Assembly: GCA_001817915.1 (NCBI GenBank)
Contig: MHJJ01000006.1
Location: 1 to 53,033 of the forward strand
Source of the DNA: Candidatus Harrisonbacteria bacterium RIFCSPLOWO2_01_FULL_44_18
GTDB taxonomy: Bacteria; Patescibacteriota; Minisyncoccia; UBA6257; WO2-44-18
DNA: 53,033 bases
Direction: 5' to 3'
Both the position numbers and the translations under genes were made by a program. This document shows, piece by piece, positions 8,626 to 14,195 of this stretch (position 1 is its first letter; each line of letters starts with the position of its first letter). Under the pieces are notes generated by a model that was given only the letters and a program-made list of their open reading frames with translations, was not told the origin of the DNA and did no database searches.

Positions 8626-11277
8626 TTATGGACCATGACAACGCTTATACTTGATCGAATGCCCATTTTCATCCTTCGCTCCGCAAGGACAAGGATCATT
8701 GCGCCCCACTTTTTCAATGTTTAATGTTGAATGTGCCATGTTAAATGTATTATTAACCGCGGTATTTTTCATATGGTCCGTACTATTTTCCTTGGCGCTC
8801 GGCACATTTAACTTTTCTTTATTTTCACCAACCCATTGGTCAAAGTCATGTAAAAGTTGCTGGAACAATAGGTGCCCTTCCCTTCGATACTCCACCAGCG
8901 GGTCATGCTGGCCATACGCTCGCAATCTTACTGATTCGGCTAGCGCTTCCATATTTTCCAAATGCGACATCCACAAAAAATCCAGCATTTGTAAAACTCG
9001 CGGCGCTACTCCATGGGATAGCGCTATCTTATGAGATAGTACCGTTCCTCCGTTTTCCTGTTTACTGTTTACTAATACCTTGTTACCTTCCAAAATTTCT
9101 TGCCGTTTTTTATAAATTGTCTGCCGCTGTTTGTTTAAAACATCGTCGTAATCAAGCAAGTGCTTACGGGCGTCAAAATTAAAGCCCTCCACCTTACTTT
9201 GAGCTTGCCCTATTGCTCGCGAAAGCATTCCGGAACGGATCGGCATATCCTCGGGAACATTCAAAGTTTCCATTAATTTTTTAATCCGTCCGCCGCCAAA
9301 AATTCGCATCAAATCGTCTTCTAAAGACAAAAAGAATTGCGAAGAGCCGGGATCGCCTTGGCGGCCGGCTCGGCCGCGAAGCTGATTGTCAATTCGTCGC
9401 GCTTCATGACGTTCAGTGCCAATCACATGCAAGCCTCCAAGGTCTTTCACTTTCTGCGCTTCTAAGATATCGGGTGGATTTCCTCCTAAAATTATGTCCA
9501 CGCCGCGGCCAGCCATATTAGTCGCGACCGTAACTGCTCCGGGTTTTCCGGTTTGAGCAATTATCGCACCTTCGCGTTCGTGATTCTTCGCGTTCAATAC
9601 TTCATGTCTTATACCCGCTTCTTTAAAAAACCGCGAAAGCACTTCGTTCTTTTCAATCGAAACCGTGCCCACCAAAACCGGCTGGCCTTTTTTCTGCTTT
9701 TCTTTAATGTCGTCAACTATCGCCCGATACTTTGCCTCAATGGTTTTATAAATCAAATCCGGATTGTCAGCCCTAATCATCAGCTGGTTAGTCGGAATGC
9801 TCGCTACTTCTAATCCATAAACTTTATCAAATTCTTCAGCGGAAGTTTGAGCAGTCCCCGTCATGCCAGCCAGCTTTTTATACAAACGGAAATAATTCTG
9901 AATAGAAATTTGCGCGTAGGTGCGCGACTCATTTTGAACCGCGACTCCTTCTTTTGCTTCAATCGCTTGGTGCAACCCCCCAGAATAACGCCGCCCCAGC
10001 ATCAATCGCCCCGTGAATTGATCGACAATGATAATTTCATTATTCTTTACAACATAATCGCGGTCTTTTAAAAATAGGGCTTTGGCGCGGAGACATTCCT
10101 GCAAATAATGAGTCAGGCGCAAATTCTCCGGAGCATATAAGTTTTTTATATTCAAAACTTTCTCAACTTTATCAATGCCCTCTTGAGTAATATCCACGGA
10201 TCGCAATTTTTCATCAACTAAATAGTCCGCCTCCTTTTCAAGTCGGTCTGCCACGCGCGCGAAAGTTTTATAAAATTGACTTGACTCGGCATCGGGCGCG
10301 GAAATAATCAGCGGCGTCCGAGCTTCATCAATTAAAATGCTGTCTACTTCATCAATCACAGAAAAACTGCGCGCTGATTCACGCTGATTAGTACGCGGAT
10401 TTACGCGGCATTGAACTTGATCCTCTAAGCGATAAACCAAATTATCACGCAGATAGTCAAAGCCGAATTCGTGATTTGTGCCGTAAGTAACATCAGCTTG
10501 ATATGCCTCGCGCCGACTGATTGGCCGCAGATATTCTTCTTGAACTAAATAACTGCCGGTTATGTCCCGTTCTTTATCCAAAAGTGCCGATTCTTCATGT
10601 CCGTCATTGCGAGGAGCCCCGTCACTGCGGGGCGACACGGCAATCCTGTGTGATTGCTTCGCTTCGCTCGCAATGACATTGCCGCGGAAATGCGGATCAT
10701 AAATCAACGCCCCCTCATGAACTAAACACGCCACACCTAGACCGAGCGCGTGATAAATCTGCCCCATCCAAACAGTATCGCGTTTAGCCAAGTATTCGTT
10801 GACTGTTATGATATGAACTCCTTTGCCAGCAAGCGCGTTCAGGTAGGCTGGCGCGGTGGCGGCAAGAGTTTTTCCTTCGCCGGTTCTCATTTCCGCGATC
10901 TTTCCTTGATGAAGCGCGATGCCGCCCATCAACTGAACATCAAAATGCCGCTGGCCCAAAGTGCGTTTAGCCACTTCCCTGACCAATGCAAAAGCCCGTG
11001 GCAGGAGTTGGTCCAAAATAATCTTTTGATGATTATCGTCGGTGGCAAGCTGGGCTTCTTTTTTAAGCAAACCGCTTTCCTGCAAAATCTGTTCTTCGTT
11101 TAATAACTTAACATCATGCTCCAGGGCATTGATTTGCTCAATAATTCTCCGCGATTCTCGATCGAATTTTCCGCCAAAGGCGGAAAATAATTTAAAAAAC
11201 CACTTGAACATGCCAAATTTGTATAAATTTTCTAGCTCAATTTGTAGCGACGAAAATTTATCTACAAATTTGAGCAC
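8626..11277 (-). CDS. secA: preprotein translocase subunit SecA
   Basis: MRTGEGKT, TYGTNHEFGFDYLRDN, VIDEVDSILIDEARTPLIIS, GTERHEARRIDNQLRGRAGRQGDPG, GRNDPCPCG...KYKRCHG. Confidence 0.98.
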   Translation of the reverse strand: MLKFVDKFSSLQIELENLYKFGMFKWFFKLFSAFGGKFDRESRRIIEQINALEHDVKLLNEEQILQESGLLKKEAQLATDDNHQKIILDQLLPRAFALVREVAKRTLGQRHFDVQLMGGIALHQGKIAEMRTGEGKTLAATAPAYLNALAGKGVHIITVNEYLAKRDTVWMGQIYHALGLGVACLVHEGALIYDPHFRGNVIASEAKQSHRIAVSPRSDGAPRNDGHEESALLDKERDITGSYLVQEEYLRPISRREAYQADVTYGTNHEFGFDYLRDNLVYRLEDQVQCRVNPRTNQRESARSFSVIDEVDSILIDEARTPLIISAPDAESSQFYKTFARVADRLEKEADYLVDEKLRSVDITQEGIDKVEKVLNIKNLYAPENLRLTHYLQECLRAKALFLKDRDYVVKNNEIIIVDQFTGRLMLGRRYSGGLHQAIEAKEGVAVQNESRTYAQISIQNYFRLYKKLAGMTGTAQTSAEEFDKVYGLEVASIPTNQLMIRADNPDLIYKTIEAKYRAIVDDIKEKQKKGQPVLVGTVSIEKNEVLSRFFKEAGIRHEVLNAKNHEREGAIIAQTGKPGAVTVATNMAGRGVDIILGGNPPDILEAQKVKDLGGLHVIGTERHEARRIDNQLRGRAGRQGDPGSSQFFLSLEDDLMRIFGGGRIKKLMETLNVPEDMPIRSGMLSRAIGQAQSKVEGFNFDARKHLLDYDDVLNKQRQTIYKKRQEILEGNKVLVNSKQENGGTVLSHKIALSHGVAPRVLQMLDFLWMSHLENMEALAESVRLRAYGQHDPLVEYRREGHLLFQQLLHDFDQWVGENKEKLNVPSAKENSTDHMKNTAVNNTFNMAHSTLNIEKVGRNDPCPCGAKDENGHSIKYKRCHGP
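8714..8748. repeat. AT-rich repeat in the secA C-terminal linker
   Basis: tcaatgtttaatgttgaatgtgccatgttaaatgt encodes TFNMAHSTLNIE. Confidence 0.55.
10369..10409. repeat. CGCGGAT/TTACGCGG-type repeat inside secA
   Basis: gcgcgctgattcacgctgattagtacgcggatttacgcgg encodes extra VNPRTNQRESAR before VIDEVDS. Confidence 0.65.
10603..10677. repeat. 75-bp palindromic repeat inserted in frame in secA
   Basis: Ends GTCATTGCGAG ... CTCGCAATGAC; encodes VIASEAKQSHRIAVSPRSDGAPRND. Confidence 0.85.
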
Positions 11278-11415
11278 CCCGTACGTTTTACGAGACTGGC
11301 TTCACATTAACACAATCAAAGCCGGAGGCGTCTTGTTAGCAGAAACATCTCACTAAGAAAAACTTTTAAGAAAACGGTGCGGGGTTGATATGATTATACC
11401 CCCGAGTATGCGCAC

Positions 11416-11443
11416 TTGACAAATCTTATGGGTATGCTATACT
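11416..11443 (+). promoter_or_regulatory. sigma70-like promoter
   Basis: TTGACA - 16 bp - TATACT upstream of 11510..12058. Confidence 0.65.
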
Positions 11444-11509
11444 GGTAGAATACTTGGGTCATGTGACTCGAGTGGAATCAGCTCTTTGGCAAAGTTTTTT
11501 GGAGGCGCT

Positions 11510-12058
11510 ATGATCACCGTGACGCCGACCAGAGTCAAGTCTGGCGAACACTTCGACTTCGGAGCGCGCCAGCTGACCACGGAACAAGCCATGGAATCGC
11601 TCGTGAAATACGAGCTCGGCTACGGTGGCAGGATCACCGAGGCTTCGCCAACCCGTATCGTGGTTCAAACCCGCGTCTTGGGACACTGTCTGGACACCAC
11701 GATCTTCGAGGGCTCAGAGGAAGAGATGCGCCCCCTGCGCGCGGCGACTTACTACTTTCTCCGAGCTTGCGGGGAACAGATGACAGACCTCGTCTTCGAG
11801 CAGGCATTCACCGATCTATCCAGGAAGGATGGGACGGCATTGCAGGCAATTGTCGCCTGGGCCGGCCCTTTGATCATCGGCCGACACCGAGTTCGAGTCG
11901 CCATGATGCTCGCCATCGGAATCACCTCCGAGGAAGACATCAAGGCGGCGCTCGCAATCCCGGATGGCGACTTCGTAGCCACGTTGGAGCTTCACTCCGC
12001 GAATCCCAACATGCCCCTCCGAGACATCATCCACCAGACAATGCCCAGCGCCGCCTAA
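11510..12058 (+). CDS. hypothetical protein with atypically GC-rich coding sequence
   Basis: ORF from MITVTPTRVKSGEHFDFGARQ after TTTTTTGGAGGCGCT-ATG; promoter upstream, terminator downstream. Confidence 0.75.
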   Translation: MITVTPTRVKSGEHFDFGARQLTTEQAMESLVKYELGYGGRITEASPTRIVVQTRVLGHCLDTTIFEGSEEEMRPLRAATYYFLRACGEQMTDLVFEQAFTDLSRKDGTALQAIVAWAGPLIIGRHRVRVAMMLAIGITSEEDIKAALAIPDGDFVATLELHSANPNMPLRDIIHQTMPSAA

Positions 12059-12065
12059 AGCGACC

Positions 12066-12100
12066 GAGGCCCGTACACTGTGTACGGGCCTCATTTATTT
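12066..12100 (+). terminator. Rho-independent terminator
   Basis: GAGGCCCGTACAC-TGTGTACGGGCCTC then ATTTATTTT. Confidence 0.85.
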
Positions 12101-12148
12101 TCCTCTCAACTTCCTTAATTCTTTCTGTCCTCCAGAATCTTGCCAGGT
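12101..12148 (-). pseudogene. orphan hpf C-terminal coding tail
   Basis: Encodes QDSGGQKELRKLRGK* (own TAA), homologous to QDSNGQRKIRDLRGKL* of the adjacent hpf. Confidence 0.7.
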
Positions 12149-12605
12149 AGTAGAAACTCGACCTTAATTTTTCAACCTTTTTGAATAAAAGTATTCTTTG
12201 AGCATTCGCTTTAATAATCTTGCGCCCTGATTAGTTTTTAAATAACGCTCTCTTCTTACAGCGTCATCTCCATTAAGAAATGCTTCACAATAAACGATAC
12301 GCCAAGGTTTATGAGACTTGGTTGAAAAATTTAAACCGCGATTATGTTCTTGCAACCTGGTTTTCAAATTCTTTGTAAGACCCACGTACAAGCTACTATT
12401 TTTGAGACTTTCTAAAACATAAACGTAGTGAAACATAATCGCGCAGTCGAGTTTTCACTAACCTGGCATACTAGGTAGTGAAAACTCGATTGCTCCGCCT
12501 TCGGTGGAGAAGGCTATCTGGCAAGGCGTTGTTTCCGAGGCAAACAAAGTTAAATAAACAAGTCGTAATTATTACTAATTAAAATCGAGTTTCTACTACC
12601 TGGCA
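12143..12605. mobile_element. putative GIY-YIG cassette bounded by 21-bp inverted repeats
   Basis: TGCCAGGTAGTAGAAACTCGA at 12143-12163 and its reverse complement at 12585-12605; internal variant inverted pair at ~12447-12488. Confidence 0.75.
12164..12436 (-). CDS. GIY-YIG nuclease family protein
   Basis: MFHYVYVLESLKNSSLYVGLTKNLKTRLQEHNRG...SHKPWRIVYCEAF. Confidence 0.93.
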   Translation of the reverse strand: MFHYVYVLESLKNSSLYVGLTKNLKTRLQEHNRGLNFSTKSHKPWRIVYCEAFLNGDDAVRRERYLKTNQGARLLKRMLKEYFYSKRLKN

Positions 12606-12611
12606 TGCGGC

Positions 12612-12986
12612 CTATAGTTTTCCACGCAAATCTCGGATCTTCCTTTGTCCATTAGAATCCTGCGGTCTGATTTTAGACATATATTTTTTAATCTCTTGCT
12701 GAAGTTCTTTTTTTATCTCATCAATACAGCGGCGAACGTCCCAGTCCTCGTGCGCGGCGCGCAAAAGCTTTCCGGGCAAAACGATATTGCATTCAGCTCG
12801 ATAAACCAAACCTTTTCGGTGATGTCTGGTGGTACGGCCAATTTCCACGTCAATATCAACACCCCCTTTTGTTTCGAGGTCTTGTAAAAATTTTTTCAGC
12901 GACCCAATCTTATCGTAAATATAATTCACAATCGATTGCGGCAAATCAATTCCTGTGGCTTTAAATTTTATATCGTGGCTAAACAT
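12612..12986 (-). CDS. hpf: ribosome hibernation promoting factor / RaiA family
   Basis: IKFKATGIDLPQSIVNYIYDKIGSLKKFL...VEIGRTTRHHRKGLVYRAECNI. Confidence 0.88.
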   Translation of the reverse strand: MFSHDIKFKATGIDLPQSIVNYIYDKIGSLKKFLQDLETKGGVDIDVEIGRTTRHHRKGLVYRAECNIVLPGKLLRAAHEDWDVRRCIDEIKKELQQEIKKYMSKIRPQDSNGQRKIRDLRGKL

Positions 12987-13044
12987 AGTTCGACAAGCTC
13001 ACTATAAATAAATTATAGTTCGACAAGCTCACTATAAATAAATT
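12985..13044. repeat. two tandem 30-bp repeats
   Basis: atagttcgacaagctcactataaataaatt x2 between hpf and murB. Confidence 0.9.
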
Positions 13045-14024
13045 ATTTCCTCTTCTAATTCTACGCCGAATTTTTTCTTCACTTCTAATTTTACCAAATT
13101 TATAAGAGCTTTAACATCTACAGCCTTGGCATTCAAAACATTAACGATAAAATTCGGATGCTTCGGTGAAATCATCGCTCCCCCCCGGCTCACACCCTTG
13201 AGGCCGCATTCTGAAATTAGGTAAGCAGTCGGAACAACTGGAAAGGGATCCGTCTTCATCGGCGCGGTGAACGCGGACTTACGCGGACTTGAACGCGGAC
13301 TTACGCGGACTGTATCGCTATTAATCTGTGTTATTTGCGCTTTTAGATCCGCAATGATCTGCGCTAAAGGCACATTTTTAAAAATACTACCTATATTGGG
13401 ATAATCCAGCGGCTGGCGTTCTTGCCGATATTTGATCTTTTCTTCGGCGGCATCGCGGATTTCTTTTTTGTCGCCTTTTTTTATCGCCAAAGTCGCTTCT
13501 AAGATAATTTCCTTACCGTCGCGCATTTTAAATATGCTATTTCGATAGCCAAATTTACATTGCGCATTATTGCGTTTTACTAGCTTTGGCCGCTTACCGG
13601 AAATATCTAAACTAACAACTTCTTTTATAGAATCTTTAATTTCTCCGCCAAAAGCTCCGGCATTGCCGCGTATCGCGCCGCCAAGAGTTCCGGGCAAGCC
13701 GCCGGCCCATTCTAAACCGGAGAGAGATTTGGTTATTACGCAATTAAGTAATTGGGATACCGAAACGCCGGCGCCTACCTTGATTATATTGCCTTCAGTT
13801 TTTAACAAATTAATTTCTGGTTTAAGAACTAAGCCGTTAAAGCCTTCATCGCTTATCAAAAGGTTGGTTCCTCCTCCCAATACAAAAACAGGCAGTTGAA
13901 ACTGCCTTGCTTTTTCAATTGAGCGAATCAGCTGTTCTACGTTTTTTGCCCGATAAAAGTATCTTGCTAACCCGCCAATTTTATAATTGCTGTAATTGCT
14001 TAAATTGATTGACTGACTAAACAT
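13032..14024 (-). CDS. murB: UDP-N-acetylmuramate dehydrogenase (UDP-N-acetylenolpyruvoylglucosamine reductase)
   Basis: YKIGGLARYFYRAKN...VLGGGTNLLISDEGFNGLVL...GLPGTLGGAIRGNAGAFGGEI...YLISECGLKG. Confidence 0.95.
   Translation of the reverse strand: MFSQSINLSNYSNYKIGGLARYFYRAKNVEQLIRSIEKARQFQLPVFVLGGGTNLLISDEGFNGLVLKPEINLLKTEGNIIKVGAGVSVSQLLNCVITKSLSGLEWAGGLPGTLGGAIRGNAGAFGGEIKDSIKEVVSLDISGKRPKLVKRNNAQCKFGYRNSIFKMRDGKEIILEATLAIKKGDKKEIRDAAEEKIKYRQERQPLDYPNIGSIFKNVPLAQIIADLKAQITQINSDTVRVSPRSSPRKSAFTAPMKTDPFPVVPTAYLISECGLKGVSRGGAMISPKHPNFIVNVLNAKAVDVKALINLVKLEVKKKFGVELEEEIIYL
13269..13311. repeat. GAACGCGGACTTACGCGGACTT x2 inside murB
   Basis: Encodes extra VRVSPRSSPRKSAF before PFPVVPTAYLISE. 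Confidence 0.75.
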
Positions 14025-14036
14025 AAATGAATTGGG

Positions 14037-14092
14037 CACTGCCGCTCCACTCTTTCCATAAATGCCATTCTGGAAAGGGTGGAGCGGCAGTG
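14037..14092. repeat. long hairpin just upstream of the murB start
   Basis: CACTGCCGCTCCACTCTTTCCA - loop - TGGAAAGGGTGGAGCGGCAGTG. Confidence 0.8.
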
Positions 14093-14195
14093 GTGACCTC
14101 CAATTCTTCTGTGTTGAATGAGTGCTCTCCTGCCACTCCACTTATAAATGTAATTTATTTTAAACAAAAATACAAACCCCATATAATACAAAACT

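Follow-up and report, generated by a model that had tools for sequence, protein, structure and literature searches.

The window, a stretch of 53,033 nucleotides from the genome of Candidatus Harrisonbacteria bacterium RIFCSPLOWO2_01_FULL_44_18, carries a GIY-YIG nuclease gene between two versions of the 3′-end of hpf. The features of the locus are as follows.

13032..14141, minus strand: murB, the upstream neighbour; best match in a genome of the same family (G003), 73%
12612..12986, minus strand: hpf, ribosome hibernation promoting factor, complete ORF (Pfam Ribosomal_S30AE, E = 9.3e-11)
12612..12662, minus strand: tail 1, the 3′ part of the complete hpf ORF, QDSNGQRKIRDLRGKL followed by the stop; diverged from the family tail
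12604..12607, minus strand: flank CATG on the hpf-to-element side; the opposite outer flank is CAAG (3/4 bases equal)
12471..12603, plus strand: 133-bp non-coding element with the ends CTAGGTAGTGAAAACTCGA / TCGAGTTTCTACTACCTGG; similar copies elsewhere in the genome
12467..12470, minus strand: TATG common to both abutting elements
12143..12466, minus strand: 324-bp GIY-YIG element with the terminal inverted repeats CCAGGTTAGTGAAAACTCGA ... TCGAGTTTCTACTACCTGG
12164..12436, minus strand: GIY-YIG nuclease, intact ORF of 90 aa (Pfam GIY-YIG, E = 1.2e-16)
12095..12142, minus strand: tail 2, orphan native hpf C-terminus, QDSGGQKELRKLRGK followed by the stop TAA; 48 nt, startless
8626..11277, minus strand: secA, the downstream neighbour; the hpf-secA order is kept in relatives

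Re-reading of the sequence showed that the tail duplication, the inverted repeats, and the GIY-YIG gene all lie where the first-pass annotation had placed them. The hpf stop is TAG at 12614-12612, and six nucleotides (GCCGCA) separate it from a perfect 21-bp inverted repeat, TGCCAGGTAGTAGAAACTCGA. The segment bounded by this repeat is 465 bp (12141-12605) rather than 463 bp, and it is not the single cassette that had been described. The end motif CCAGGTAGT(GA/AG)AAACTCGA is present four times in it and delimits two head-to-head elements (12471-12603 and 12143-12466), each with its own end repeats. The hpf gene scored above the cut-off of the NCBIfam equivalog yfiA, and the nuclease ORF belongs to the GIY-YIG superfamily with 61.1 bits against a Pfam cut-off of 22.6. 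The gene order at the locus is thus hpf with an alternative C-terminus, the nuclease ORF, and an orphan C-terminus, which is the order of the mobile-ORF (mORF) type.

Several other features were noted in the neighbouring genes. A G+C-rich gene of 190 aa (11486-12058, plus strand) lies within 11400-12095, between secA and the orphan hpf tail; it has a promoter-like sequence and a hairpin terminator, and showed no match in Pfam, NCBIfam, or PHROGs. On the minus strand, secA contains an in-frame insertion at 10603-10677 encoding about NVIASEAKQSHRIAVSPRSDGAPRND (DNA GTCATTGCGAGCGAAGCGAAGCAATC...CGCAATGAC), which is missing or much shorter in the SecA of relatives and resembles a protein-inserted palindromic repeat element. 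Palindromic repeat elements inserted in proteins are known in Rickettsia. The murB gene has a tandem 22-bp repeat (13268-13311) inside an in-frame insertion of about 21 residues that is absent from the MurB of relatives.

Tail 2 has 15/15 aa identity to the hpf tail of two genomes of the same family (G001 and G003), and tail 1 has 10/15. The hpf tails in the family are QDSGGQKELRKLRGK (G001, G003), QDSRGQKELRKLRGK (G006), QDGRGQEKLRNLRGK (G007), and QDSGSQEKLRKLRGK (G005); families outside it mostly have no such tail, with the exception of one genome (G381, locus L099) that has the variant QDSKQKNKLRELRGK. Tail 2 was taken as native and tail 1 as the newcomer because tail 2 matches the tails of the same family, and since the hpf-secA order is conserved, tail 2 occupies the native place. 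Comparison with the family tails thus identifies the original hpf tail as the displaced one and the tail in current use as the probable newcomer. A chance peptide or a decayed copy of tail 1 was ruled out as the source of tail 2, which equals the family tail. When upstream gene tails were set against downstream peptides in an end-anchored test, hpf reached 55, which exceeds chance; the control (re-paired flanks, 20 shuffles) gave maxima of 23-37, except for one value of 149 whose source was not traced.

The two tails had been described as aligning residue for residue with different codons. They do align, and 4/10 of the identical residues use another codon, but 5/15 residues differ; tails 1 and 2 are divergent homologues and not purely silent recodings. 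The codon differences and the restored completeness of the gene favour the model in the first-pass annotation, in which a permanent cassette of nuclease and recoded hpf tail homes into hpf and the recoding prevents self-cleavage and recombinational loss. We consider this model improbable. About 80 other hpf loci, several of which share a genome, were examined; none has a GIY-YIG gene nearby, and a second hpf occupied by this element was not found among them.

The hpf body has only 48% identity to the hpf of G003 (residual −2.2 SD), and the neighbouring murB has 73%; murB is closest to this genome of the same family, and the murB side is therefore native. In the hpf tree, the six other family members form a clade that does not include the hpf of the window (support 85/93), and in the fusA tree its genome groups with a member of the family, G004 (98/94). 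These comparisons suggest that the import may cover more than the tail, perhaps all of hpf. A foreign origin of the whole gene was not accepted as proven: the trees lean that way, yet the clade test on the hpf body does not reject a native origin (p-AU 0.225). A 30-bp tandem repeat, ATAGTTCGACAAGCTCACTATAAATAAATT, lies at 12985-13044 between murB and hpf, where an imported hpf may have its left limit.

The genome of the window contains 18 copies of the element end motif (control 0). It has five GIY-YIG genes, and only the one in the window has ends of this repeat family. Throughout the class, related nucleases are encoded in elements of about 300-350 bp, which lie at unrelated sites. The flanking 4-mers were identical in 19 TATG-type pairs and in 5/12 other pairs, against 0.5 expected on shuffling. 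These identical 4-mers are target-site duplications of 4 bp. Because of them and the terminal repeats, the repeat family behaves as a transposon with non-autonomous derivatives; terminal inverted repeats together with target-site duplications of fixed length are the mark of a DNA transposon. The element in the window has no recognised transposase, and the GIY-YIG ORF is its sole gene. A search of five elements (L001, L040, L096, L265, and L281) against Rfam gave no match at the gathering score; on this ground, group I introns and other known mobile RNAs were rejected as an explanation.

A repeated element could also mislead an assembler. With 18 ends in the genome and an assembly of 14 contigs, contigs of two strains might have been joined at the element to give a chimera. 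The order murB-hpf-secA is conserved on both sides, and one parent would still need an element inside its hpf tail, so we regard this as very improbable.

About 20 further copies with the GIY-YIG gene were checked for duplicated gene tails; none has one, and they insert with 4-bp target duplications. The claim that the element restores its host gene with a recoded C-terminus is supported in part. The far tail is the original one, and the idea extends to other GIY-YIG elements, but the tail is not a standing part of this element. The first-pass annotation had named, as an observation that would speak against it, copies showing no association with gene 3′-ends, and this is largely what was seen. 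There is a modest excess beside 3′-ends, as 8/35 elements of the repeat family lie within 20 nt of one, compared with 131/2014 random points outside ORFs. Since the other members of the family have no tail duplication, the nuclease may be a passenger.

This leads to the main rival of the reading that we prefer, which is presented below. Natural transformation could have introduced a foreign allele of hpf that was already followed by the element, joined by homology on one side and illegitimately on the other (homology-facilitated illegitimate recombination), with no part for the nuclease. The product would be the same as that of a homing-like import. Such passive import fits an element family that is otherwise transposon-like, with 4-bp target duplications and no tails, and it fits an hpf body that also looks foreign and a right junction with a 3-bp match. 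A passenger role, however, leaves unexplained why other GIY-YIG elements are found repeatedly and exactly at such duplications, and we think passive import fairly unlikely.

GIY-YIG genes were sought in the order and class (loci through L456). Of 302 nuclease genes tested, three besides the one at hpf flank recoded C-termini (fusA, uvrA, and uvrB) and two flank N-termini. At L096, fusA (named by Pfam) ends in EFDSYTEAPQNVAQQIIEGKK and a stop, followed by the GIY-YIG gene and then by EFDSYTEAPANVAKEIIEGKK and a stop; 18/21 residues of the two tails are identical, and 13/18 of these have another codon. The C-terminus of UvrB is repeated at L281 (17/23 identical, 11/17 recoded) and that of UvrA at L265 (32/33 identical, recoding mainly at the end), both genes being named from the sequence by eye. 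L270 and L277 are the mirror image: the complete gene lies downstream there, and a remnant of the N-terminus upstream. These five loci have common ends like TGTCCCGATTT ... AATCGGGACA. Many high-scoring matches in the first flank screen were tRNA fragments or DNA repeats and not protein tails. L287, L284, L329, L441, and L456 were left out of the protein cases as tRNA-adjacent, and L402, L453, L308, and L328 were likewise left out of the count. Duplicated gene parts recur at other GIY-YIG elements of the class.

The fusA, uvrA, and uvrB cases are analogous to what the permanent-cassette model of the first-pass annotation describes. That model is opposed by the relatives of the window's nuclease, which lie at unrelated sites without tails, and by the bases beside the insertion points in fusA and uvrA. 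These bases are nearly unchanged, so recoding for immunity is not favoured.

The survey of tRNA genes covered 243 classified GIY-YIG genes with a tRNA window of 150 nt. Among the 20 genes of the window's type, one tRNA was found within this distance. The other 223 included 108 with a tRNA within 150 nt, 106 of them on the same strand; the comparison figure beside these counts is that of other ORFs in the same tRNA-enriched loci (42/310). For 36 genes of the 243-gene set, all among these 223, a complete tRNA on one side of the nuclease is matched by a fragment of it on the far side, the fragment being mostly the 5′ part and the complete tRNA lying downstream. At L226, L235, L220, L253, and L255, palindromes (for example TCCGTCAGCTGACGGA) are inserted into the D-arm/anticodon region of the tRNA remnants beside the GIY-YIG genes. 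In four genomes (L260, L261, L263, and L264), a related GIY-YIG gene lies directly upstream of tRNA-Ala(cgc), which suggests repeated homing to one site.

We propose that a homing-like transfer left its scar at the hpf locus when the hpf 3′-end of a related lineage was copied together with the elements into the native hpf. We hold this reading to be evenly poised between right and wrong. In the donor, an hpf of a related lineage, the stop codon would already have been followed closely by the GIY-YIG element and its non-coding partner. A break in the native hpf between the codons for Arg-Pro and Gln-Asp would have been repaired by copying the donor 3′-end, possibly the whole hpf, plus the elements. 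One junction would have formed by homology between the two hpf genes, and the other by the 3-bp match GCA between the element flank and the native tail. The outcome would be a gene completed by the imported tail, with the native tail orphaned behind the element. GCA is present at both junctions, as noted before; the left flank is CATG and the right flank is CAAG, and the native sequence is CCG-CAAG-ATTC. These flanks fit a donor copy behind the stop that was joined to the native CCG-CAAG-ATTC at GCA. We infer that the GIY-YIG nuclease made a double-strand break, in which direction the transfer went, and how far the import extends. The nuclease is seen as the break-maker because the arrangement recurs with other GIY-YIG elements.

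The homing-like import is supported by the same architecture at fusA, uvrA, uvrB, two N-termini, and 36 tRNA sites. It is also supported by murB being family-like and the hpf body not, by tail 2 being the family tail and tail 1 not, by the conserved hpf-secA order, and by a precedent in fungal mitochondria. The p-AU of 0.225 for a native body, the tail length of only 15 residues, and the tail-less relatives in the repeat family, by which the nuclease may be a passenger, count against it. No donor genome with tail 1 plus the element was found, which also speaks against it.

More tentatively, and with somewhat less than an even chance of being right, we suggest that the element in the window is a minimal transposon of ~320 bp that uses its 90-aa GIY-YIG nuclease as transposase, and that this nuclease also moves the non-coding copies with the same ends. 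The same suggestion holds that a homing system, widespread in tRNA genes and essential protein genes of bacteria, is made up of the other GIY-YIG elements of the class, with targets kept whole by a carried duplicate of the severed part. The repeat family would then be a candidate for a transposon family driven by a GIY-YIG nuclease. The scar may allow recent gene transfer between uncultured Patescibacteria to be read. The loci at hpf, fusA, uvrA, uvrB, two N-termini, and dozens of tRNAs provide a concrete set for the study of cleavage, immunity, and interspecies transfer. They point to an intron-free lifestyle of selfish nucleases inside essential genes of bacterial chromosomes, earlier known mainly from fungal mitochondria.

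In the literature searched, which left most subscription journals outside, we found no report of a terminal-repeat transposon with GIY-YIG as its sole gene, or of GIY-YIG elements in bacterial chromosomes that restore parts of tRNA or protein genes. The same searches gave no earlier account from CPR of GIY-YIG elements that have terminal repeats or duplicate tRNAs. The element resembles insertion sequences with MITE derivatives in its terminal inverted repeats, 4-bp target duplications, and short non-autonomous copies sharing its ends, whereas it has no known transposase and the GIY-YIG nuclease is its only gene. Some integrases reconstitute the 3′-end of their target gene, such as that of element e14 in icd. 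There, as here, the occupied gene receives a variant 3′-end from the element, but the window's element has no integrase gene.

The rRNA genes of CPR contain insertions with homing endonucleases, many of them intron-like, removed from transcripts, and mainly LAGLIDADG, and GIY-YIG was judged to lie outside the spread by homing (PMC11270868). The window shares with them the bacterial group and selfish nuclease genes inside conserved genes, and differs in that no RNA family was recognised and a duplicated part keeps the gene whole. The closest known system is the C-terminal duplication by mORFs in fungal mitochondrial DNA, in Allomyces atp6 and in Glomus atp6, atp9, cox2, and nad3 (PMC3630166). 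Their order is an inserted C-terminus, an endonuclease ORF (GIY-YIG in atp9), and a native C-terminus that matches relatives (PMC3630166). The hpf locus differs in lying on a bacterial chromosome, in its very small nuclease (90 aa) within an element with terminal inverted repeats, in the adjoining second, non-coding element, and in being known from sequence alone. Both systems have a diverged inserted C-terminus that completes the host gene, an endonuclease ORF, and a native C-terminus like that of relatives.
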